Assembly (NCBI GenBank): GCA_947489705.1
Contig: CANLEQ010000006.1
Location: 124,001 to 188,000 of the forward strand
Reading direction: 5' to 3'
Source of the DNA: an uncultured Paracoccaceae bacterium
Lineage (GTDB): Bacteria; Pseudomonadota; Alphaproteobacteria; Rhodobacterales; Rhodobacteraceae
DNA: 64,000 nt
In this document: positions 53,551 to 63,327 of the stretch, in pieces
Position numbering within the stretch: position 1 is the first letter of the stretch
Layout of the letters: every line of letters begins with the position of its first letter
Program-made: the position numbers and the translations under genes
Notes under the pieces: generated by a model
What the model saw: only the letters and a program-made list of their open reading frames with translations
The model's database searches: none
Told to the model about the DNA's origin: nothing

Positions 53551-53957
53551 GCGAAATATAATACCTATGGCCCTCCTTCCTGACTCGATTGTGAGGTGCG
53601 CGCGCTTTCGGGCCATGATTCCGTTCTTCCGTTGACGGGAGGGCCAACGATGACGGTTGCGATTCGTCGTCCTCGACGGCGCGGGTTGGCACGCCTCCAA
53701 CGCGCTCGTCGTGCCCGACAACCTTACCCTCGTCCCGCTGCCACCCTACGCCCCGGAGCTGAACCCCATCGAGAACGTCTGGGCCCTACCTGCGCGCCAA
53801 CCGCCTCGCCATCTCCGTCATGGACACCTGGGACGACATCGTCACCGCTGCTGTGACGCCTGGAACTTCTTCGCACAGGAGCAAGACCGCGTCCGATCCA
53901 TCACGAACCGGGACTACGCCAAAGCAGTCAATGGTTAGGGCCGTTGGTATAATTCGC
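53551..53957 (+). mobile_element. IS630-family remnant with degenerate inverted ends
   Basis: The left end 53551-53574 reads gcgaa...tataatacc..ggccct and the reverse complement of the right end (53937-53957) reads gcgaattataccaacggccct; they match with small gaps, as old terminal inverted repeats would. Between them, in about 400 bp, only the C-terminal third of an IS630-type transposase remains. A complete element is about 1.1 kb, so this is an internally deleted copy. Confidence 0.65.
53657..53938 (+). pseudogene. IS630-type transposase, C-terminal fragment with two frameshifts
   Basis: The DDE_3 domain end is recognisable: FVVLDGAGWHASN (second catalytic Asp) and PPYAPELNPIENVW (catalytic Glu region), ending SITNRDYAKAVNG. 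The first catalytic Asp and all N-terminal parts are missing. Near 53788 the frame shifts (YLRANRLAISVMDTWDDIV is read in the next frame) and shifts back near 53862 to AWNFFAQEQDRVRS. It cannot encode an active transposase. Confidence 0.8.
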
Positions 53958-54014
53958 GTTCGGTGGCGGCGCCGAACCACACGCGTTCGGCATTCCTGCG
54001 GACGCGCCTGCCTC

Positions 54015-54745
54015 TCAAGGATGAAGCCGGGATATTCCACCGGCAGTTCCGTGACCTCGTTGAGCCGAGCAATCTCTTCGTTCGACAGACGAACTTCCTT
54101 CGCCGCGATGTTGTCGCGCAGTCGATCGACCCGCTTGGCCCCGATGATCACGCCCGTCACAATCGGCTGATGGAGAAGCCACGCGATCGCGATCTGTGCC
54201 GGAGTGACACCTTTCTCCTCGGCCATCGGGCGCATCGCCTTCAGTGCCGCGGCCAGACGATCGCGGTTGACGGGCGGGAAGTCGAAACTGTCCCGGCGCC
54301 CTCGGCATCGTACTTCCCTGTGAGCATGCCGCCGGCGAGCGGACTCCCGACCATGAGGCCGAGACCTTCGAATTGAAGCAGCGGTACGAGCTCGCACTCC
54401 AGATCGCGATTGGCAAGGTGTAGAACGCCTGAAGCGAGATCGGCCGGTGGAGAACCCGCGCCCTGGCAATGCCGAGCGCCTTCATGATCTGCCACGCCGC
54501 CCAGTTCGATAGCCCGACATGATGGGCATGGCCGCGTGTGTCGAGCGCCTTGAGCGTCTCGTCGATCGGCGTGGCGGGATCGAAACCGTGGATCTGAAAG
54601 AGATCGACGTGATCGAGCTGCAACCGGTCGAGGCTTTCGCGGATCCGGTCGTGCAGATGCCGGCGCGACGTTCCGCGCGCGTTCGGGCCTTCGCCCCCAT
54701 CGCCTTTGTCGCGATCAGCACATCCTCGCGCTTCACCTGCTGCGC
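54015..54745 (-). pseudogene. Aldo/keto reductase pseudogene with several frameshifts
   Basis: Pieces of one aldo/keto reductase appear in different frames in the right order: KREDVLIATK near 54740, then RESLDRLQLDHVDLFQIHG and THRGHAHHVGLSNWAAWQ-like sequence, next VPLLQFEGLGLMVGSPLAGG, then PVNRDRLAAALKAM, VTPAQIAIAWLLHQPI and LNEVTELPVEYPGFILERQ at the C-terminus. At least three frameshifts separate them. The N-terminal catalytic Asp/Tyr region is absent, replaced by aldehyde-dehydrogenase sequence. The 3' end lies about 60 bp from the IS630 remnant. Confidence 0.8.
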
Positions 54746-55125
54746 CCAGGTGTCGCGAAGATCGGTTCGGGCCATCGGGCCGAGGGCCCTACCCCCATCG
54801 GACAGGTCGCCCGTTTCGATTTGCACATGTCTTCTCGGCATAGCGTTCGACGGGCGCCTCGTAATTCCGATCGGTGACGATGAACCGCTTCCCCATTCCC
54901 GCAGGTTTGGCCGTTATCGTAGATCCTCGCCGCAACGCGAGCATCGACGGCCACGTCGAGACCGGCATCGGCGAGCACCGGACGGGCGTCGTTCGATCCG
55001 AGTTCGAGGACGGATTTCTCCGTGCCCGGCCGCCTTCTGCGCGACGATCCTGCCCGCGCGATTGCTGCCCGTCAACGTCACACCGCGCACGCCTGGCTGA
55101 CATCGCGCAAGGGGGCCGGGCAACG
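54745..55125 (-). pseudogene. Aldehyde dehydrogenase (SSADH-like) internal fragment, frameshifted
   Basis: An internal piece of an aldehyde dehydrogenase, in order: VRGVTLTGSNRAGRIVAQKA, VLADAGLDVAVDA, RVAARIYDNGQTCG (catalytic Cys region), KRFIVTDRNYEAPVERYAE, and RALGPMARTDLRDTWAQQV. It changes frame at least three times, lacks both ends, and runs without a break into aldo/keto reductase sequence at about 54745. Both are clearly dead and were joined by deletion or recombination. Confidence 0.75.
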
Positions 55126-55180: not shown

Positions 55181-56980
55181 TCAGGCGGCCCCCATCCGCG
55201 ACGGCTTGTCCGGTGCCCCCGCGACACGGTGGCCTCCGGCCACCTCGCGAAGGGAGATGCGCGCGGGACCGCGGCCGACGGGAAAGATCGGGCTTGCCTC
55301 CTCGATACCGGTCGTGTCGGGCAGCGGCGGGCGTCGCCGCGCGGGGTCGGGCACCGGAACCGCGGTGAGCAGGCGTTTGGTGTAGAGATGCTGCGAATTG
55401 AGCATCACCGCGTCCCGCGGTCCTTCTTCCATCACCTGCCCCAGCCGCATGACCATCACCCGATCGGCAACCTGTTCGATCACCGCCATGTCGTGGCTGA
55501 TGAAGAGATAGGAGAGCCCGTCTTCCTCCTGCAGCTCCTGCAGGAGGTCGAGCACCTGTGCCTGAACGCTCACGTCCAGCGCCGAGACGCTCTCATCCGC
55601 GACGATGACCTTGGGCGACAGCGACAATGCACGCGCAATGCAGACCCGCTGGCGTTGTCCGCCCGAGAATTCGTGGGGGTAGCGCGACAGCATGTCGGGC
55701 GAGAGACCCACCCGCCGGAACAGCCATTCCGCCCGGTCGTCGAGTTCCGATCCCCGCGCCAGCCCGTGGACACGCATCGGCTCGACCACCTGCTCGCCGA
55801 CGGTCATGCGTGCATCCAGCGACGCGCCGGGATCCTGAAAGACCATCTGGATGTCGCGCAGGACCGGGCGCATCATCGTCCGCGAGCGGCCCTGCGTCTG
55901 GACCCCGTTGACCCGAACCGATCCCTGCCACGGGACGAGCCCCAGAAGCGCCTTGCCGATGGTCGATTTCCCGCATCCCGACTCGCCCACCAGCGCCAGG
56001 GTCTCGCGCTCGCGGATGTGAAACGAGACCCCCTCGACCGCGTGCACCCGCGCGATCGCCCGCCCGAGCAGGCCGCCGGTGATATCGAAGCGGACGCTGA
56101 GGTCGTCCACCTCGACGATCTTCCTGCGCTCGTCTCCGGCCGGGCGGGCCGGCGCGGTGCCGAGCCGGGGAACCGCGGCCAGCAGCGTGCGCGCATATTC
56201 CGTTTGCGGGGCGGCGAAGAGCTCGGTGACCGGCGCGGCCTCTTCCTGCCGTCCCTGGCGCAGCACGATGACGCGGTCCGCCATCTCGGCCACCACGCCC
56301 ATGTCGTGGGTGATCATCAGAACGGCGGTGCCGTTGCGGGATTGCAGGGCCCGGATCAGCTCGAGGATCTCGGCCTGCACGGTCACGTCCAGCGCCGTGG
56401 TCGGCTCGTCCGCGATCAGGATCTCCGGGTCGCAGGCGAGGGCGATCGCGATCATCACGCGCTGCCGCATCCCGCCAGAAAGCTCGTGGGGATATTGCTT
56501 CAGCCGTCGCTCGGGCTCGGTCAGGCGGACGTCCCGGAGCAGCCCGAGCGCGCGCTTCGGCGCATCGGCACGTCCGCAGACCCCGTGTTCAAGCAGCACT
56601 TCGACGAGCTGGCTCTGCACCGTCATCAGCGGATTGAGCGAGGTCATCGGCTCCTGAAAGATCATCGCGATCCGGGCGGAGCGTATCCGGCGATATCCAT
56701 GTTCGTCGAGGGCGGTCAGATCGACGTCGCCCAGCCGGATCGACCCGCCGGCGACCCGCGCCATGGGTTTCGGCAAAAGGCCCATGATCGCGAGCGCCGT
56801 CATCGATTTGCCCGAGCCACTTTCGCCGGCAAGGGCGAGCGTCTCGCCGGGCACGAGATCGAAGGACAATCCGTCGAGGACCGTCTTCGCGCCCGCTTCG
56901 GTCGCCACCTGGACCTTCAGGTCCCGCACCGTCAGGAGGGGCCGTCTCCCGGCCCCTCCCGTATCCTGCCCGAACGTCAT
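55181..56980 (-). CDS. Two-domain peptide-type ABC ATPase (DppD-DppF fusion, GsiA-like)
   Basis: A 599-aa protein with two complete nucleotide-binding domains. Domain 1 (about residues 14-265) has [17 protein letters not shown] and ADEPTTALD; domain 2 (about 290-540) has [17 protein letters not shown] and ADESVSALD. This matches GsiA/YejF-type fusions of DppD and DppF. It overlaps the formamidase start by ATGA and is the last gene of the AmiC-led operon, powering the DppBC-type permeases upstream. The last 60 residues are arginine/proline-rich and not conserved. Confidence 0.9.
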   Translation of the reverse strand: MTFGQDTGGAGRRPLLTVRDLKVQVATEAGAKTVLDGLSFDLVPGETLALAGESGSGKSMTALAIMGLLPKPMARVAGGSIRLGDVDLTALDEHGYRRIRSARIAMIFQEPMTSLNPLMTVQSQLVEVLLEHGVCGRADAPKRALGLLRDVRLTEPERRLKQYPHELSGGMRQRVMIAIALACDPEILIADEPTTALDVTVQAEILELIRALQSRNGTAVLMITHDMGVVAEMADRVIVLRQGRQEEAAPVTELFAAPQTEYARTLLAAVPRLGTAPARPAGDERRKIVEVDDLSVRFDITGGLLGRAIARVHAVEGVSFHIRERETLALVGESGCGKSTIGKALLGLVPWQGSVRVNGVQTQGRSRTMMRPVLRDIQMVFQDPGASLDARMTVGEQVVEPMRVHGLARGSELDDRAEWLFRRVGLSPDMLSRYPHEFSGGQRQRVCIARALSLSPKVIVADESVSALDVSVQAQVLDLLQELQEEDGLSYLFISHDMAVIEQVADRVMVMRLGQVMEEGPRDAVMLNSQHLYTKRLLTAVPVPDPARRRPPLPDTTGIEEASPIFPVGRGPARISLREVAGGHRVAGAPDKPSRMGAA

Positions 56981-57918
56981 TCCAGGACAAGCCGCGGGAA
57001 GTAGAACGACACGACCCAGTTCGGCATGTCCACGATCTCGGATATCCGGAGATCCCCCGCGACCGAGCAGAGCAGATAGGCGTCCTCGGCCGAGAACCCG
57101 TGATGCTTGCCCAGCAGATCGACCATGGCCGAGACGGCATCCCTGGCGCCGCTCATCATGTCGGGCCCGATCCCCGTCGTCACCTCGTAGCCCTTAGCAT
57201 CGAGATGGCGCGTCACCGGGCCCGGCGTGGTAAAGCGCGGAAAGGCGAGCTTCTCCTGCTTCACCAGGTCCAGCGTGATCTCGACGTCCATCGGACTTTC
57301 GATGGCCGTCCCGCAGACCTCGCCATCGCCCTGCGCCGCATGCGTGTCCCCGATCGAGAAGAGCGCCCCCGCGACCTCGACCGGCAGATAGAGCGTGGTC
57401 CCCGCGGCGAGATCGCGGATATCGAGGTTTCCGCCCATGCGCCGCGGCGGCACGACGGAATGAAGCCCGGGCTCCGCCGGAGCGAGGCCGATCGTTCCCG
57501 CGAAGGGCTTCAGGGGGACCTTCGCGAGATCGGAGAAAAGTGCGGGTTCAAGACTGTCCGGGTCGTAGTCCCAGACCTTCAGATGCGGTTCGGTGAACTG
57601 GTCGGCAAGCAGACCGAAGCCCGGAATGTTCGCCGTCCAGCCGAAGCCCGACGGGTGGAACGCCTCGATCTGCACCTTCAGCACGTCTCCCGGCTCGGCC
57701 CCGTCGACATAGACAGGACCTGTGACCGGGTTGATCTTGCCGAAATCCAGGCTCGGCACGTCGGCCGAGACGCTGTCCTTCGTGAACTGGCCGCCCGAAC
57801 TGTCGAGGCACTGGAAATGCAGGCGACTGCCGGGGGCGACCGTCCGGGCGGGCGGGATCGAATGATCCCACCCGTGATGGTGATGGCCGTGGATCGTGTA
57901 ATCGCAATTCTTGCACAT
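56977..57918 (-). CDS. fmdA: Acetamidase/formamidase family amidohydrolase
   Basis: A 313-aa enzyme of the FmdA_AmdA family, which hydrolyses formamide or short amides to ammonia and the acid. It has the family signature near the N-terminus, HGHHHHGWDHSIPPARTVAPG, and GDTHAAQGDGEVCGTAIE with the metal-binding Asp and His. The very start also carries CKNC. It lies in an operon with an AmiC-type amide sensor and AmiR, which supports an amide substrate. It ends overlapping the ATPase gene and starts 6 bp after the binding-protein gene. Confidence 0.9.
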   Translation of the reverse strand: MCKNCDYTIHGHHHHGWDHSIPPARTVAPGSRLHFQCLDSSGGQFTKDSVSADVPSLDFGKINPVTGPVYVDGAEPGDVLKVQIEAFHPSGFGWTANIPGFGLLADQFTEPHLKVWDYDPDSLEPALFSDLAKVPLKPFAGTIGLAPAEPGLHSVVPPRRMGGNLDIRDLAAGTTLYLPVEVAGALFSIGDTHAAQGDGEVCGTAIESPMDVEITLDLVKQEKLAFPRFTTPGPVTRHLDAKGYEVTTGIGPDMMSGARDAVSAMVDLLGKHHGFSAEDAYLLCSVAGDLRISEIVDMPNWVVSFYFPRLVLE

Positions 57919-57924
57919 GTCGGA

Positions 57925-59538
57925 TCACTGAGCCCCCGTCGCATGGATATAGTCGTAGTTCACGGGGATATGGACCGGATCGACAAAGAGGCTATCGTCG
58001 CCCGCGACGCGGTCGGAATGCAGGGTGAACCGCTGCTCGTTGAAGACCGGAACCCAAGGCGCGTCCTCCATGATGTCGAGATAGATCTGGCGCCAGGCCT
58101 CCTCGCGTCCCGCCTCGTCGCCGACCATCGCGTCTGCGTCGGAGGCCCGTTGGTCGATCTCCTCGTTGCAGTACCACGACCAGTTCCAGCCGCCCGGCGT
58201 CGCACCGGCACAGCCCAGGATCGGCCCGTAGAAGTTGGACGGGTCCGGGAAGTCGGCGATCCAGGCCATGCCGCCCGACCAGATCATCGGGGCCTGGTCC
58301 GCCTCGCCGCCCGCCGCGATCACGTTCGATTGCGCAAGGCTGCGGATCTCGGCATTGACGCCGATCTGGCTGAGGTCCTGCTGGATCGCCTGGGCGATGC
58401 GCGGGTTGGGATCGACGTTCATCACGTAAAGCTCGGTGTCGAACCCGTCGGCAAACCCAGCATCGGCCAGCATCTGCTGGGCCGCTTCGGGATCGTAGGC
58501 ATAGCCGTCGTAATCCTCGGCGTAACCCGGCATCGTGGGCGGCAGCGGCTGGTTCGCCGGCACGGCGCGCCCGTTGATCATCTGGACGATGCGGTCCTTG
58601 TTGATCGCCATGTTGATGGCCTTGCGCACCTCGACATTGTCGAACGGCGCCATCCGGGTGTTCATCGTGATGTAGCCGGTCTGAAGCTGTCCGCCTTCGA
58701 CGATCTGGTCCTCGTACTCGGCATCGTTCATGACTTGCAGGAACTGCGCGGGGGGGATGCCGTCGCCGGGCACGTCCGCACCGCCGTTCTGCAGGCGCAG
58801 CAGGGCCACCGTCGGGTCGAGACCGATATCGAAGGTCACCTGATCGAGCTTGGGTACGCCCTCCCGGTGATACTCCTCGAACCGCTCGAAGACGAGGCGT
58901 TGGCCGGGCGTCCATTCAGCAAGGCGGAACGCGCCCGAGCCGACGGGCTGGCGTCCGAAATCGTCGCCTGCCTCTTCCACGGCCTCCTGCGGCACGATCG
59001 ACGCGAAGTTCAGCGCCATGACGTGGCCGAAGGTCGCGTCGGGGCGCGAAAGGGTGATCGCGACGGTCTTGTCGTCCATGACCTCGATGCCCGAAAGCCC
59101 CTCTCCCTCACCGGCATTCCACGCATCGAAGCCCTCGATCATCGAGAAGAACCCCGCACCGGGGCTGCGCGTCTCGGGGTTCGTCACCCGCCCCAGCGAG
59201 TATTTCACGTCTTCGGCGGTGATCTCGCGCCCATTGTGGAACGTAATCCCGTCCTTGAGCACGAAGGTATGGGTCAGCCCGTCCTCGCTGATCTCGTGAC
59301 TTTCGGCGAGTTCGTTGCGCAACGTGGTCGTGCCGGGCTTGTAGCCCATCAGCCCGTCGAAGAGCGATTTGATCATGGACCAGTTCTGCCAGTCATAGCC
59401 GATCGCAGGGTCGAGCGTCGCCACGTCGTCCTGATAGGTCACGACCATCTCGCCGCCCTGCGCCGCGTCCTCGTTCACCTGTGCGAGCGCGCCGCCGGCC
59501 GTCAGGGCGAGCGCCGAGGAAAGAAGCAATCTTTTCAT
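57925..59538 (-). CDS. Peptide-type ABC transporter substrate-binding protein (SBP_bac_5)
   Basis: A 537-aa periplasmic protein with a Sec signal peptide (MKRLLLSSALALTAGGALAQ). The mature domain has ATLDPAIGYDWQNWS, THTFVLKDGITFHNGREIT and AINMAINKDRIVQ, typical of the family 5 binding proteins. It follows the DppB-type permease gene by 19 bp, so here the binding protein is not first in the operon. The ligand may be an amide-bearing peptide or N-formyl compound (inference from the amidase and sensor). Confidence 0.9.
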   Translation of the reverse strand: MKRLLLSSALALTAGGALAQVNEDAAQGGEMVVTYQDDVATLDPAIGYDWQNWSMIKSLFDGLMGYKPGTTTLRNELAESHEISEDGLTHTFVLKDGITFHNGREITAEDVKYSLGRVTNPETRSPGAGFFSMIEGFDAWNAGEGEGLSGIEVMDDKTVAITLSRPDATFGHVMALNFASIVPQEAVEEAGDDFGRQPVGSGAFRLAEWTPGQRLVFERFEEYHREGVPKLDQVTFDIGLDPTVALLRLQNGGADVPGDGIPPAQFLQVMNDAEYEDQIVEGGQLQTGYITMNTRMAPFDNVEVRKAINMAINKDRIVQMINGRAVPANQPLPPTMPGYAEDYDGYAYDPEAAQQMLADAGFADGFDTELYVMNVDPNPRIAQAIQQDLSQIGVNAEIRSLAQSNVIAAGGEADQAPMIWSGGMAWIADFPDPSNFYGPILGCAGATPGGWNWSWYCNEEIDQRASDADAMVGDEAGREEAWRQIYLDIMEDAPWVPVFNEQRFTLHSDRVAGDDSLFVDPVHIPVNYDYIHATGAQ

Positions 59539-59557
59539 GTTTTTTCTCCGCTGTTGG

Positions 59558-60478
59558 TCATTTCGTCTTGATTCTGGGGTCGATCAGGGGCGCCACGAGA
59601 TCGGCGAGCAGATTGCCCAGCACGATGGCGGTGGCCGAGACCATGGTGACGCCCATGATCACGGGGATGTCGACGCGCTGGATGGCCTGCCAGGCAAGCT
59701 GCCCGATTCCGGGCCAGCCGAAGACGCTCTCCACCACGACGATACCGGACATGAAAAGGCCGATATCGATCCCGATCATGGCGATGATCGGCAGGATCGC
59801 GTTGGGCATCACGTGGCGCGTGACGATGCGGAGCTTCGACAGCCCCTTGGCCCGCGCGGTTCGCACCAGATCCTGATTGAGCACGTCGATCATCGAAGAA
59901 CGCATCATGCGCGAGTACCACCCCGCCCCGAGAAGCCCGAGCGTGATCGACGGGAGCACGAAATGCGCAGGCGTGCCGTAGCCGCCGATCGGGAACCACC
60001 CCAGCTGCACGGCAAACACGTAGAGGAGCAGGATGCCGATGACGAATTGCGGCGCCGAAATCGCCACGAACGAGAAGATCATCAGCGAATGATCCGCCGG
60101 CCGGTTGCGCCGGAGCGCCGCCACCACGCCGATGGTCAGCCCGATGATCAGTTCCGTCACGATCGCCGTCACCATCAGCATCAGGCTCGCCGGCAGCCGC
60201 GCCCATATCAGCGACGAAACCTCGGCCCGCTGCAGGTAGGAGCGCCCCATATCCCCCTGGAAGAGCCCGGTGAGATATCGCCAGTACTGCACGAAAAGCG
60301 GATCGTTCAGCCCCAGCTGGTCGCGGATATTGGCTACCGTCTCGGCCGTGGCCGACCGCCCTGCGATCTGCCGGGCCGGATCGGCCGGCACGAGATAGAG
60401 CAGCACGAAGGTCACGAAGGTGATCCCCAGCAGGATCAGCGCGCTCTCGAACAGGCGGCGGGCCAGATAGGCGGTCAT
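59558..60478 (-). CDS. Peptide-type ABC permease (DppB-like)
   Basis: A 306-aa permease starting MTAYLARRLFESALILLGITF, with the DppB pattern VPADPARQIAG, GLFQGDMGRSY and the EAA loop VRTARAKGLSKLRIVTRHVMPN. The ATG (60478) shares one base with the stop of the DppC-like gene (TGATG), so translation is coupled. The upstream continuation to 60589 is not part of the gene. Confidence 0.92.
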   Translation of the reverse strand: MTAYLARRLFESALILLGITFVTFVLLYLVPADPARQIAGRSATAETVANIRDQLGLNDPLFVQYWRYLTGLFQGDMGRSYLQRAEVSSLIWARLPASLMLMVTAIVTELIIGLTIGVVAALRRNRPADHSLMIFSFVAISAPQFVIGILLLYVFAVQLGWFPIGGYGTPAHFVLPSITLGLLGAGWYSRMMRSSMIDVLNQDLVRTARAKGLSKLRIVTRHVMPNAILPIIAMIGIDIGLFMSGIVVVESVFGWPGIGQLAWQAIQRVDIPVIMGVTMVSATAIVLGNLLADLVAPLIDPRIKTK

Positions 60479-61374
60479 CAGTGCCGTCCCTTCAGCGTCG
60501 GGTCGAGGATGTCGCGCAGCGCGTCGCCCACGAGGTTGAACGCGAGCGCCAGCAGCACGATCAGCAGCCCGGGAAAGAACACCAGCCACGGCGCGGTCGA
60601 GAAATAGGTCTGGTTCTCGAAGATGATGTTGCCCCAGGAGGGCATCGGCGGCTGCACGCCCACGCCCAGATAGCTCAGCGTCGCCTCCAAAAGCACGGTC
60701 GTGGAAATTCCCAGCGTCCCGAAGACGATGATCGACGACAGCAGATGCGGCAGCAGGTGCCGCCCGAGGATCCTGAGCGGCCCCGATCCGATGGCGCGCT
60801 GGACCTGGATGAACTCGCGCTCGGCTAGGCTGCGCGTTTCGGTATAGATCACGCGGCTCATCTGCACCCAGTTCACCATCGCGATGACCAGCGCCACGAT
60901 CATCAGCGACGGCTGGAAGATCGCGGCCAGCACGATGGCGAGCAACAGCGCCGGGAAGGCCATCATCAGGTCGGTGAAGCGCATCAGGATCGCCGCAATC
61001 CAGCCGCCGAAATACCCCGCGGTGATGCCGACGCCCGCGCCCAGCAGAACCGCGATGCCATTGGCCACGACCCCGATGATCAGCGACGTCCGCGTCCCGA
61101 GGATCAGGCGAGAGGCGAGATCGCGCCCCAGGAGATCCGAGCCCAGCAGGTAATCTCCGCCCGGCGGCAGGGGGCCGCCCATGAGGCTGAGGCCCTCGAA
61201 GCTCTGCTCGAAGGGATCATGCGGCATGATCCAGGGCGCGAAGACCGCGGCGAAGACCATCAACGCGATGACGACGAGGCCGAATGCCGCGCGCGGTCGG
61301 CGTACGAGCTCGCCCAATACCGCGCGGGGGCGCGAGACGCGCGGAACCGCGGCCGGTCCGCTCGCCACGCTCAT
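60478..61374 (-). CDS. Peptide-type ABC permease (DppC-like)
   Basis: A 298-aa permease with a cytoplasmic N-terminal arm, first helix, then PWIMPHDPFEQSF and LLGSDLLGRDLASRLILG, both typical of DppC, and the EAA loop RAIGSGPLRILGRHLLPH. ATG at 61374 overlaps the AmiR-like stop by ATGA, so transport genes follow the regulators in a single transcript. Confidence 0.92.
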   Translation of the reverse strand: MSVASGPAAVPRVSRPRAVLGELVRRPRAAFGLVVIALMVFAAVFAPWIMPHDPFEQSFEGLSLMGGPLPPGGDYLLGSDLLGRDLASRLILGTRTSLIIGVVANGIAVLLGAGVGITAGYFGGWIAAILMRFTDLMMAFPALLLAIVLAAIFQPSLMIVALVIAMVNWVQMSRVIYTETRSLAEREFIQVQRAIGSGPLRILGRHLLPHLLSSIIVFGTLGISTTVLLEATLSYLGVGVQPPMPSWGNIIFENQTYFSTAPWLVFFPGLLIVLLALAFNLVGDALRDILDPTLKGRH

Positions 61375-61961
61375 CGCTTGCCCGCCCGCGCCGACAGCCG
61401 CTCGGCCAGCAGAAGGGTCGCGGCCTCCTCGAGCGGGACCTGCGCGACCATCGCCATGGCTCGCAACTTCTTGAGCGCCAGCGCCTCGCTGCCGCATTCG
61501 GGCATGAGCGCAAGGACCGCGCGGATCACGTCCAACCGGCCGGCCCTCTGCCGGGCGACTTCGCGCGTGGCGGCCGACCGGTCCGCCTTGGCGGCGAAGG
61601 TCTCGTGCGCGATCACCAGGGCCGAGAACAGGTTGCCGAGTGCGGAGACCGGCAGGTAGGCATCGAGCCCCTGCCCCAGCGCCCAGGCGAGCCGTCCCGG
61701 ACTTTCCGAGCCCACCAGCCCGATGAGGGGCACCGGTGCTGCGCCCGCTTCCCAAGGAAACTGCCCGTCATGGCCCGTATCGATGTCGAGAATGACCATG
61801 TCGGTCTCCGCGGCCATCGACGCGTCGAGATCGCCGCGATGCGGCAGCGCCCGGATCCCCAGACGCTCGCAGCGCTCGACCACCCGGCGCATCGGCTCGT
61901 CCGAGCGGTGCAGGACGATCGCGGTCAGCCCGGCGAAATTGTGGAGGGGAAAACGGCTCAC
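61371..61961 (-). CDS. amiR: AmiR-like ANTAR-domain antiterminator
   Basis: A 196-aa protein with an N-terminal pseudo-receiver region (about residues 1-115) and a C-terminal ANTAR RNA-binding helix set (about 137-190, VIRAVLALMPECGSEALALKKLRAMAM). In Pseudomonas AmiR lets transcription pass terminators in the amidase leader, and is held inactive by AmiC when no amide is bound. Here it overlaps the AmiC-like gene by ATGA and is followed by amide/peptide import genes and a formamidase, so it may control its own operon. Confidence 0.87.
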   Translation of the reverse strand: MSRFPLHNFAGLTAIVLHRSDEPMRRVVERCERLGIRALPHRGDLDASMAAETDMVILDIDTGHDGQFPWEAGAAPVPLIGLVGSESPGRLAWALGQGLDAYLPVSALGNLFSALVIAHETFAAKADRSAATREVARQRAGRLDVIRAVLALMPECGSEALALKKLRAMAMVAQVPLEEAATLLLAERLSARAGKR

Positions 61962-63064
61962 GTCACGACCCTCAACATGGGCCGGTGCGACGCGGCGCCC
62001 CCACCTTGCCGCGCGAGATAGGGATCGGCGGGAACGGCGTCGGGCGCGCGGTCGATGATGCGGAACCGTCCGTTCCCGGCCAGCGCCAGCCGGGGGGCGA
62101 GGGCCGCGTGGCGCATCACCTTATCGATGCGGATATCGCCCATCGCGGTGCGGATCGGTCGTTGCGAGGCCGCGGCAAAGACCGCGCGCGGCGCATCCGT
62201 TCCCGCGGCGATGGCCGCGGCGGCAAAGACCTCGACGGCGGCATAGGCGCTGGCCAGAAACGCCGACGCCCGGCCGCCCGGCGCATGGTCGCGAGCGGCC
62301 TTGAGCAGTTCGGGGCCGGCATCCTCCTCGAAGAACCCCCCCGCCGACAGAAGGCCGTCCGCCGCGGGCCCGAGCTCGGCCAGATCGGCCTCCGTCTGGT
62401 TGAAGCTGACCACATGGCCCGGCCGGCCCTGCCGTACGGGATCGCGCGCCAGAAGATCGCGCATGAAACCGGTGTTGGACGGACCTATGAGGCTGTTGCA
62501 CACGCACTCCGCCCCCGTGGCACGGATCTCCTCCACGACATGGGCATGCTCGGTCGAGCCGAGAGGCACGTAGCGTTCGCCCAGAACCTCGATGCCGGAG
62601 GCCTGCAACCTGTCCCGGGCGAGGCGCAGCGTTTCCCATCCCCAGACGTAGTTCGAGCCCATCAGATAGGCGCTCCGCATCCCCTGACGCGCGATCCAGT
62701 CGGTCGCCGGAACGACGTGATGGTTCGGCGCGGCACCCATGTAGACGACGTGGTCGCTGCATTCGAACCCTTCATAGGGGCACGGATACCACAGCAGCCC
62801 GTCCTTGCGCTCGAGCACGGGGATCATGTCCTTCCGGCTCCAGGAGGTGATCGCACCGACGATATGGCGCACGCCATCGTCGAGCAGTTCGGACGCGGCG
62901 GCCTCGTACCGGGCGACATCGCCGCCGGGGTCGCGGGTCACGGGCTCGATCTCCACCGAATGCTTCAGCGCGTCGATCGCCCCGAGGGCACCGGCCAGCG
63001 CGCTCTGCCCCAGTGCCGCGTAGCTGCCGCTCGTCGAAAAGATGAGACCTAGCCTGAGGGTCAT
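61958..63064 (-). CDS. amiC: AmiC-like cytosolic amide sensor (negative regulator)
   Basis: A 368-aa periplasmic-binding-protein-like (Peripla_BP_6) protein without a signal peptide: it starts MTLRLGLIFSTSGSYAALGQ, directly the first strand of the fold. Family features YPCPYEGFECSDHVVYMGAAPNHH, GSNYVWGWETLR and SLIGPSNTGFM are strong. AmiC binds short amides in the cytoplasm and releases AmiR; related UrtA/FmdD proteins are secreted transport components, which this one is not. It is first in the operon. GGGGA lies just before the ATG at 63064; a longer frame to 63199 runs through the leader and is rejected. Confidence 0.87.
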   Translation of the reverse strand: MTLRLGLIFSTSGSYAALGQSALAGALGAIDALKHSVEIEPVTRDPGGDVARYEAAASELLDDGVRHIVGAITSWSRKDMIPVLERKDGLLWYPCPYEGFECSDHVVYMGAAPNHHVVPATDWIARQGMRSAYLMGSNYVWGWETLRLARDRLQASGIEVLGERYVPLGSTEHAHVVEEIRATGAECVCNSLIGPSNTGFMRDLLARDPVRQGRPGHVVSFNQTEADLAELGPAADGLLSAGGFFEEDAGPELLKAARDHAPGGRASAFLASAYAAVEVFAAAAIAAGTDAPRAVFAAASQRPIRTAMGDIRIDKVMRHAALAPRLALAGNGRFRIIDRAPDAVPADPYLARQGGGAASHRPMLRVVT

Positions 63065-63327
63065 GGTGTCCCCAACGAAAAAAGGCCCCGCCTCCCCGAA
63101 CGCGTCAGGGATATGCGAGGCCCGATTGCCCTTGGTCGTCGCCGCGACCGTTTCAAGCAAGCTGCGCCAAGACGGACCCTGTGTCCAGAGCGCAGGCATC
63201 TCGCGAATGGCCGCCCGTATTTTGCTTACTATTTAGGCATATTCTCGCCGGCCCGCCGCCCGTTTCGGCGAAAGCGGAGGATGTGCCCCGTCATCCGGGA
63301 GCGTGCCGCCGGACCTGCATCTTGGCG
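63065..63327 (-). promoter_or_regulatory. Leader of the AmiC operon: two hairpins and a terminator-like element
   Basis: Read on the minus strand, 63195-63162 forms a hairpin (ctgcgc/gcgcag with inner ggac/gtcc), 63149-63134 a second hairpin (ggtcg/cgacc with a 6-nt loop), and 63093-63078 is aggc-ggg-gcct followed by six T, 15 nt before the ATG. Two hairpins then a terminator is the layout of ANTAR-controlled leaders. The loop does not carry the usual A1/G4 pair, and the terminator stem is only 4 bp, so this stays tentative. AT-rich DNA near 63217-63240 may hold the promoter. Confidence 0.4.

Follow-up and report, generated by a model that had tools for sequence, protein, structure and literature searches.

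The locus treated here appears to have an already described relative, an 8-kilobase (kb) operon on plasmid pKOS9-W1, which holds amiC, amiR, one amidase gene named amiE and four cluster-5 ATP-binding cassette (ABC) genes (PMC13209695, 2026). Plasmids of Klebsiella, Raoultella and Phytobacter, among others, were reported to match it with over 99% similarity, and lysate of Klebsiella sp. KOS9 had an acetamidase activity of 3355 U/mg, with the plasmid operon as the only amidase cluster described (PMC13209695). That assay was controlled by a reaction from which acetamide was left out; neither "knockout" nor "uninduced" occurs as a word in the article, and KOS9 could not be tested there for growth on acetamide (PMC13209695). 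The present analysis concerns a seven-gene operon of an uncultured marine Paracoccaceae bacterium, found in a stretch of 64,000 nucleotides (nt; the window) that comprises positions 124,001-188,000 of contig CANLEQ010000006.1; coordinates are window positions unless another locus is named. The operon probably serves to scavenge a small primary amide that also induces it, by way of AmiC/AmiR antitermination.

The gene set is apparently not new, being in print as an acetamidase operon on Klebsiella plasmids (PMC13209695). The pKOS9-W1 operon appears to be of the same type as the Klebsiella plasmid operon compared below, a match made through the article's text (PMC13209695); if so, its enzyme would belong to the FmdA family. 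A first-pass annotation of this DNA had set the Dpp-type importer found here against known AmiC/AmiR systems, with their aliphatic amidase and small channel protein, and against known formamide importers of the branched-chain-amino-acid type; this contrast was incomplete, as what seems to be the same operon is in print (PMC13209695) and a sister locus (L130) pairs AmiC-AmiR with a branched-chain-type importer. The literature searched contained no account of the leader, of the spread across alphaproteobacteria or of the pocket arguments given below.

Gene order and distribution of the operon

The seven minus-strand genes are packed as one stretch, 55181-63064, with junctions of -4, -4, -1, +19, +6 and -4 nt from the AmiC-like gene to the ATPase gene, as given by open reading frame coordinates. 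The limits set by the first-pass annotation were exact, and its gene families and their order were confirmed throughout (Table 1). It had also proposed a neighbourhood search for a conserved gene order, and this order was found. A hydrolase search of GTDB genomes confirmed at least 585 relatives, the best 80 loci of which were kept for a gene-order count; all seven genes stand in the same order, with every gap below 400 nt, in 71 of these 80. A 72nd full set (L011) has one gap of 417 nt, another locus (L065) has six genes followed by the contig end, and one (L042) lies on a short contig. Two loci of Granulosicoccus (L019 and L034) have the transporter and hydrolase with no match to AmiC/AmiR, and four (L024, L051, L064 and L082) have the hydrolase without the operon. 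The claim that a Dpp-type importer and a formamidase-family enzyme form one conserved unit under an AmiC/AmiR pair is thus borne out by gene order.

Operon hosts include Rhodobacterales, Hyphomicrobiales, Kiloniellaceae and Thalassospira, and the hydrolase has a mean identity of 80% across 74 operons. Protein distances were compared in 74 operons (the window, one Klebsiella plasmid and 72 loci) for six genes, DppB being left out; they correlate at 0.85-0.94 among AmiC, AmiR, DppC, the binding protein, the hydrolase and the ATPase, which agrees with joint inheritance of the operon genes. With AmiC as the query, 54 of 248 genomes of the family matched at an E value of 1e-30, and 30 loci were kept; these include the window, and L088 and L009 are probably one genome, so that this set and the hydrolase-selected one overlap. 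An AmiR-like gene adjoins in all 30, DppC comes next in 24, and a strict P2 hairpin with an overlapping terminator (see below) is present in 23. Among 289 genomes drawn from the class, with the genome of the window counted in, the hydrolase was found in 17 at an E value of 1e-90.

Several of the outlying loci have features of their own. In L019 an isochorismatase-family gene follows the operon part, and tripartite ATP-independent periplasmic (TRAP) transporter genes lie upstream in both Granulosicoccus loci (one gene scanned per locus). No substrate hint came from the neighbours of stray hydrolases, with three genes considered for L051 and two each for L064 and L082; L051 has another Dpp-type importer downstream of the hydrolase. 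In Mesorhizobium muleiense (L024, 9556-11361) the hydrolase lies beside fragments of binding-protein and ATPase genes, and this locus is probably a decaying operon copy that retained the enzyme. In Sinorhizobium meliloti Ak57 (L136, 6489-7080) the AmiR-like gene is unannotated and broken across two frames, unlike the six others, which are annotated, and the operon is flanked on both sides by cobalamin genes.

A Klebsiella pneumoniae plasmid (NZ_CP018886.1), the only plasmid for which gene order was read, has the same seven genes in the same order. Identities to the window proteins by BLAST are 66% for the hydrolase, 65% for the binding protein, 64-68% for the permeases, 54% for the ATPase and 37% for the AmiC-like protein, and the AmiR-like protein is 18% identical in alignment, with no significant BLAST match. 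Of 72,556 plasmid records, 735 cover at least 80% of the 8-kb stretch at one place, as do 6 of 5,426 E. coli genomes; any match was found in 1,139 plasmid records, 757 of them from Klebsiella. In two Klebsiella plasmid records (H89 and H90) the importer is labelled glutathione GsiA/B/C and the enzyme formamidase, even though 8upi, the closest relative of the window binding protein with a solved structure, is titled with aminoserine (see below).

Leader RNA and AmiR-like protein

The leader ahead of the AmiC-like gene contains two predicted small hairpins, P1 and P2, followed by an intrinsic terminator (Table 1). Leaders of 74 operons (the 71 full ones, L011, L065 and the window) were compared. 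The P2 pattern, GGC-N6-GCC, is present in 73 of them; base-composition shuffles gave 5.1 and dinucleotide shuffles 8.9. In the 74th (L018) both sides of the middle P2 pair are exchanged, together with the matching base of the terminator. A terminator of -15 kcal/mol or lower overlaps P2 in 69 of the 74 leaders (11.8 in dinucleotide shuffles). P2 and the terminator are mutually exclusive, the GCC arm of P2 being also part of the 5' arm of the terminator. Terminator pairs covary, with both sides changed in 12 cells (1.4 in shuffles), and pairing is lost when the partner is shifted along; this is support and not proof, because related sequences can beat such shuffles without structure. The P2/terminator overlap at any strength (72/74, but 46.6 in dinucleotide shuffles) and a T-rich tail by a loose rule (74/74, but 64.2/74) are weak measures because the shuffles score so high, and the weight for the terminator is carried by the -15 kcal/mol measure and the covariation only.

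The first hairpin, P1, is less certain than P2. By a loose rule, within 32 nt before P2, it occurs in 62 of 74 leaders, against 24.0 in base-composition and 29.1 in dinucleotide shuffles, and all 62 also have the P2/terminator overlap. Its stems are of 29 different kinds, one of them common to 30 leaders, and in 44 of the 62 leaders P1 stops 2 nt ahead of P2. A loosely defined promoter-like site lies upstream of P2 in 48 of 74 leaders, whereas base-composition shuffles gave 2.0. The site of the window has a poor -10 box, CAGCTT, which matches TATAAT at only 2 of 6 positions, and neither a generic sigma-70 promoter scan nor a generic terminator scan picked up the leader elements in the window.

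Hexaloops of ANTAR targets have been described as having A at position 1 and G at position 4 (PMC3369931). In the P2 loops, A1 is present in 71 of 73 and a purine at position 5 in all 73. By its arrangement in the sequence the leader is of the ANTAR-antiterminator architecture, class membership being claimed for this architecture and not for the loop rule. The Klebsiella plasmid leader has a P2 of CAGGT-AATGAA-GCCTG, with both A1 and G4, that overlaps a terminator; the design is thus kept with other letters beside an AmiR-like protein only 18% identical, which supports a P2/terminator switch. An antiterminator-type leader ahead of the first gene likewise fits the view of the first-pass annotation that the AmiC-AmiR pair heads the operon.

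A search of the whole window against Rfam was negative at gathering scores, as was one of the leader up to an E value of 5. No description of this leader was found in the openly licensed literature searched, a search that lay outside the supplementary tables of PMC3369931. The pattern of P2 plus terminator matched only this leader in the genome of the window. As a regulon marker the pattern was dropped as too loose, with 13 of 289 class genomes matching against 4 for the reversed control.

The AmiR-like protein of the window matches AmiR_N in Pfam at an E value of 5e-4 and 20.5 bits, under the cut-off of 27, and has no ANTAR match; across the family, ANTAR was found in 54 and AmiR_N in 53 of 55 aligned members at E values up to 0.1. 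Its predicted fold has a mean predicted local distance difference test score of 94.1, and the best matches are P. aeruginosa AmiR (1qo0, E 3e-8) and RNA-bound EutV (6ww6, E 2e-7). The assignment to AmiR rests on this fold because a phmmer search against PDB sequences gave no match up to an E value of 1. The protein is, as modelled, a pseudo-receiver followed by a coiled coil and an ANTAR domain. By eye, the acidic pair after strand 1 of the receiver domain is missing, and D59, at the end of strand 3, is invariant in 55/55.

RNA contacts of EutV involve Arg142, Arg168 and Met172 (PMC8934654). Spacing allows these to be equated, putatively, with R142, R167 and M171 of the window protein, which are invariant in all 55 AmiR-like proteins. 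Position 163, in the place of EutV Tyr164, is Y in 36, L in 13 and F in 6 of the 55, and no link between this residue and G4 of the loop was seen by eye among these proteins.

Ligand sites and enzyme

The AmiC-like protein has no signal peptide by eye, and its opening residues already form the first strand of the fold. A cytosolic sensor of the binding-protein fold is thus encoded beside an AmiR-type protein, and the system is a variant of AmiC/AmiR amide control. The invariant S74, Y93 and Y139 align with S85, Y104 and Y150 of AmiC, which we take, like the other AmiC residues compared here, to have roles in its pocket; the places of AmiC Tyr83 and Tyr152 are occupied by I/V/T and W. By spacing, the same three residues can tentatively be equated with Ser122, Tyr141 and Tyr190 of UrtA, all close to bound urea, of which Ser122 and Tyr190 bond urea and Tyr141 only lines the site (PMC10392092). 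Gln144 of UrtA also bonds urea (PMC10392092); its place corresponds to Pro107 of AmiC and is proline in 70 of 74 sensors. The AmiC-like protein is therefore read as a probable amide sensor with a reshaped pocket, and not as a urea sensor.

The periplasmic binding protein starts with a signal peptide by eye and is 67% identical over 509 columns to PDB 8upi, which by its title is a Mesorhizobium sp. AP09 periplasmic peptide binding protein in complex with aminoserine; the ligand is taken from this entry title only. In DppA, Asp408 holds the amino group of the peptide and Arg355 its carboxylate. The counterpart of Asp408, D429, is present in 74 of 74 binding proteins (the place being counted in the alignment), whereas all 74 lack an equivalent of the four residues that include Arg355, so that the pair of sites of a DppA-type dipeptide importer is incomplete. 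An amine site without a carboxylate site would fit an amino-acid amide, as judged from these two sites, and another residue could replace Arg355. Searches of the openly licensed literature for amino-acid-amide uptake and for a report of the aminoserine structure returned nothing relevant.

The hydrolase belongs to the FmdA_AmdA family (PF03069), with 204.6 bits against a cut-off of 27, and most of its sequence aligns with 2ii1, 2f4l and 3tkk, short members of known structure (297-301 amino acids). Against the NCBIfam model for formamidase FmdA (NF045496) it scores 135 bits, short of the cut-off of 500, and thus falls outside FmdA proper. A second FmdA-family gene lies elsewhere in the same genome (L115, contig C9, 430-10754), beside a Dpp-type importer with a binding protein, two ATPases and two permeases, and near carnitine-type genes (a 3-hydroxyacyl-CoA dehydrogenase with thioesterase, and BKACE); this second enzyme may act on carnitine amide.

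On one side of the operon a TerC/Alx-type gene extends from 63328 onward, and on the other there is gene debris below 55181. The debris at 53657-55100 comprises, by eye, pieces of an aldo/keto reductase (54015-54623 region) and the end of an IS630-type transposase (53657-53938).

Table 1. Genes of the operon and elements of its leader, in window positions.
Feature	Positions	Strand	Basis
AmiC-like cytosolic amide sensor	61958..63064	(-)	Pfam Peripla_BP_5/6 fold; PDB AmiC 1pea, E 6e-40; S74, Y93, Y139 invariant 74/74
AmiR-like antiterminator (predicted pseudo-receiver, long helix, ANTAR)	61371..61961	(-)	Structure model and PDB match; R142, R167, M171 invariant 55/55
DppC-type permease	60478..61374	(-)	Pfam BPD_transp_1 and OppC_N
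DppB-type permease	59558..60478	(-)	Pfam BPD_transp_1 and BPD_transp_1_N
Periplasmic binding protein SBP_bac_5, homologue of PDB 8upi	57925..59538	(-)	Pfam; 8upi 820 bits, 67% identity
Acetamidase/formamidase-family hydrolase, 313 amino acids	56977..57918	(-)	Pfam FmdA_AmdA 204.6 bits; PDB 2ii1, 2f4l, 3tkk
Fused double ATPase of importer, DppD-DppF type	55181..56980	(-)	Two ABC_tran stretches and oligo_HPY (Pfam)
Weak promoter-like site	63159..63187	(-)	-35 TGGACA 63187-63182, 17-nt spacer, -10 CAGCTT 63164-63159
P1 hairpin GGUCG-CGGCGA-CGACC	63134..63149	(-)	Fold
P2 mini-hairpin GGC-AAUCGG-GCC, candidate AmiR-like target	63119..63130	(-)	3' arm shared with terminator
Intrinsic terminator hairpin overlapping P2	63083..63123	(-)	Fold
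Terminator U tract TTTTTT	63077..63082	(-)	Sequence

Proposed switch, rival explanations and known systems

The switching and the substrate are proposals, whereas the gene set, its order and conservation, the AmiR-like fold and the exclusivity of P2 and terminator are read from the sequence or from a structure model. In the proposed mechanism, the cytosolic AmiC-like protein would hold the AmiR-like protein inactive in the absence of amide, and most transcripts would end at the leader terminator. Binding of an amide to the AmiC-like protein would release the AmiR-like protein, which would then bind P2, together with P1 where present, and keep the 3' arm of P2 from the terminator. All seven genes would be read through, the two regulators included, making the switch self-amplifying. 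The binding protein, DppB, DppC and the fused ATPase would import the amide, and the FmdA-family enzyme would hydrolyse it to ammonia and an acid. The most likely substrate class is a small amide, possibly one with an amino group such as an amino-acid amide, with acetamide and formamide as the main alternatives. Scavenging of a small amide is also favoured by the acetamidase measured in lysate of a strain that appears to have this operon as its sole cluster of the kind (PMC13209695).

A number of observations weigh against this proposal. The minimum-energy fold of the window leader consists of P1 and the terminator with no P2, and its z score of -2.33 is mildly unusual. P2 has almost no covariation of its own, as two of its three pairs never vary, and with G4 in only 6 of 73 P2 loops the A1/G4 rule is not followed. 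P1 is absent by rule in 12 of 74 leaders under a loose rule, with loops mostly of 7 nt (38/62). The place of EutV's G4-stacking tyrosine is Leu in the window protein. Binding of the window leader by the AmiR-like protein is therefore not proved, given the rare G4, the mostly 7-nt P1 loops, the loose P1 rule and this leucine; it is possible that this AmiR-like branch reads another base, that G4 matters less, or that P2 is not the site. The distance correlations of 0.85-0.94 have no null model and are partly shared ancestry, the sensor, binding protein and enzyme might have different substrates, and no expression, binding or growth data were found for the Paracoccaceae source organism. The acetamide data come from a strain whose enzyme is probably the plasmid one, 66% identical to that of the window, with no knockout in the passages available (PMC13209695).

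The same acetamide data may instead be taken at face value, with the importer taking up acetamide itself and the enzyme being an ordinary acetamidase in an acetamide/formamide utilisation operon (a reading of PMC13209695). This is a tentative alternative, favoured by the 3355 U/mg of KOS9 lysate with the plasmid operon as the sole amidase cluster described (PMC13209695), by an enzyme of the acetamidase/formamidase family and by a sensor that retains the Ser, Tyr and Tyr of AmiC. However, the available passages of PMC13209695 include no knockout or plasmid-free strain, and growth of KOS9 on acetamide was not testable there. The SBP_bac_5 importer and its homologue with aminoserine in the title point to a larger ligand, residues other than tyrosine stand in place of AmiC Tyr83 and Tyr152, and the enzyme misses the NCBIfam formamidase cut-off. 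The first-pass annotation proposed capture of an N-formyl or amide-bearing peptide followed by hydrolysis, that is, scavenging of amide-capped or N-formyl peptides. Of this, the amide is kept as the substrate class and the peptide is not. In favour of a peptide, the importer is of the DppA/OppA type; against it, the title of 8upi names one small amino-acid-like ligand, the Arg355 loop is absent in 74/74 (a substitute residue being possible), there is no peptidase gene among the seven, and small amides are the expected ligands of a cytosolic AmiC-like protein. It is unlikely that an N-formyl peptide, or indeed any peptide, is captured.

It is improbable that the leader is a constitutive terminator only, with regulation by another route. 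Its position between terC and the AmiC-like gene could let it end upstream transcription, and the promoter-like site of the window is weak, but 69 of 74 leaders have a strong terminator that overlaps P2, a promoter-like site stands just before it in 48 of 74, and the Klebsiella plasmid leader repeats the design with different letters. Antitermination controlled by a small amide is the preferred explanation. A more specific form of it is rather doubtful: an inducible system for amino-acid amides (e.g., serinamide-like), spread across alphaproteobacteria and hundreds of Klebsiella plasmids, with an AmiR-like protein that would read a loop of A1 and purine-5 instead of A1/G4. No importer with its own regulator assigned to amino-acid amides was found in the openly licensed literature searched.

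The interest of the locus lies in its real substrate and in the altered loop of a large family of antiterminator-like leaders. Public labels call such genes a peptide or glutathione importer with a formamidase, which would be misleading if the present reading is right. An organic nitrogen source of marine and rhizobial bacteria would then have been overlooked, and studies of RNA recognition would gain many ANTAR leaders that follow another loop rule and are easy to test.

Related loci give some indication of how such systems are assembled. Six AmiC-AmiR loci lack DppC; five of these were extended and ten of their genes scanned. L130 (also numbered L111) combines AmiC-AmiR with a Peripla_BP_6 protein, a branched-chain-type permease and an FmdA-family gene, and has a leader with the P2/terminator overlap. 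One scanned gene of L131 encodes a Peripla_BP_6 protein and one of L132 an FmdA-family protein, and L134 has similar openings. In L133 an FmdA-family gene is accompanied by a different SBP_bac_5 protein and a pair of ATPases of the oligopeptide type. Modules for regulation, import and hydrolysis thus seem to be exchanged around amides. On a Skermanella mucosa plasmid (L137) the permeases, binding protein and hydrolase have the same order and are followed by two separate ATPase genes in place of a fusion, with no AmiC/AmiR annotated nearby and a preceding nitronate monooxygenase gene.

Among known systems, the fmd/urt clusters described in PMC13209695 likewise join an FmdA-family enzyme to an importer, but in them the importer belongs to the branched-chain/urea type and uses a Peripla_BP_6 binding protein. 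The Klebsiella plasmid operon, carried on an IncF-type plasmid, has a P2 loop AATGAA with A1 and G4, unlike most relatives of the window. The likeness to 8upi, solved for the binding protein alone, is one of binding-protein sequence (67%). With amiEBCRS of P. aeruginosa, the locus shares a cytosolic amide sensor and its ANTAR partner, encoded inside the operon under their control. AmiE is a nitrilase-type amidase, whereas the window operon has an FmdA_AmdA enzyme and a Dpp-type ABC importer, places its regulators first and has P2 loops that rarely carry G4. Common to both is a leader in which small hairpins overlap the terminator (PMC3369931).

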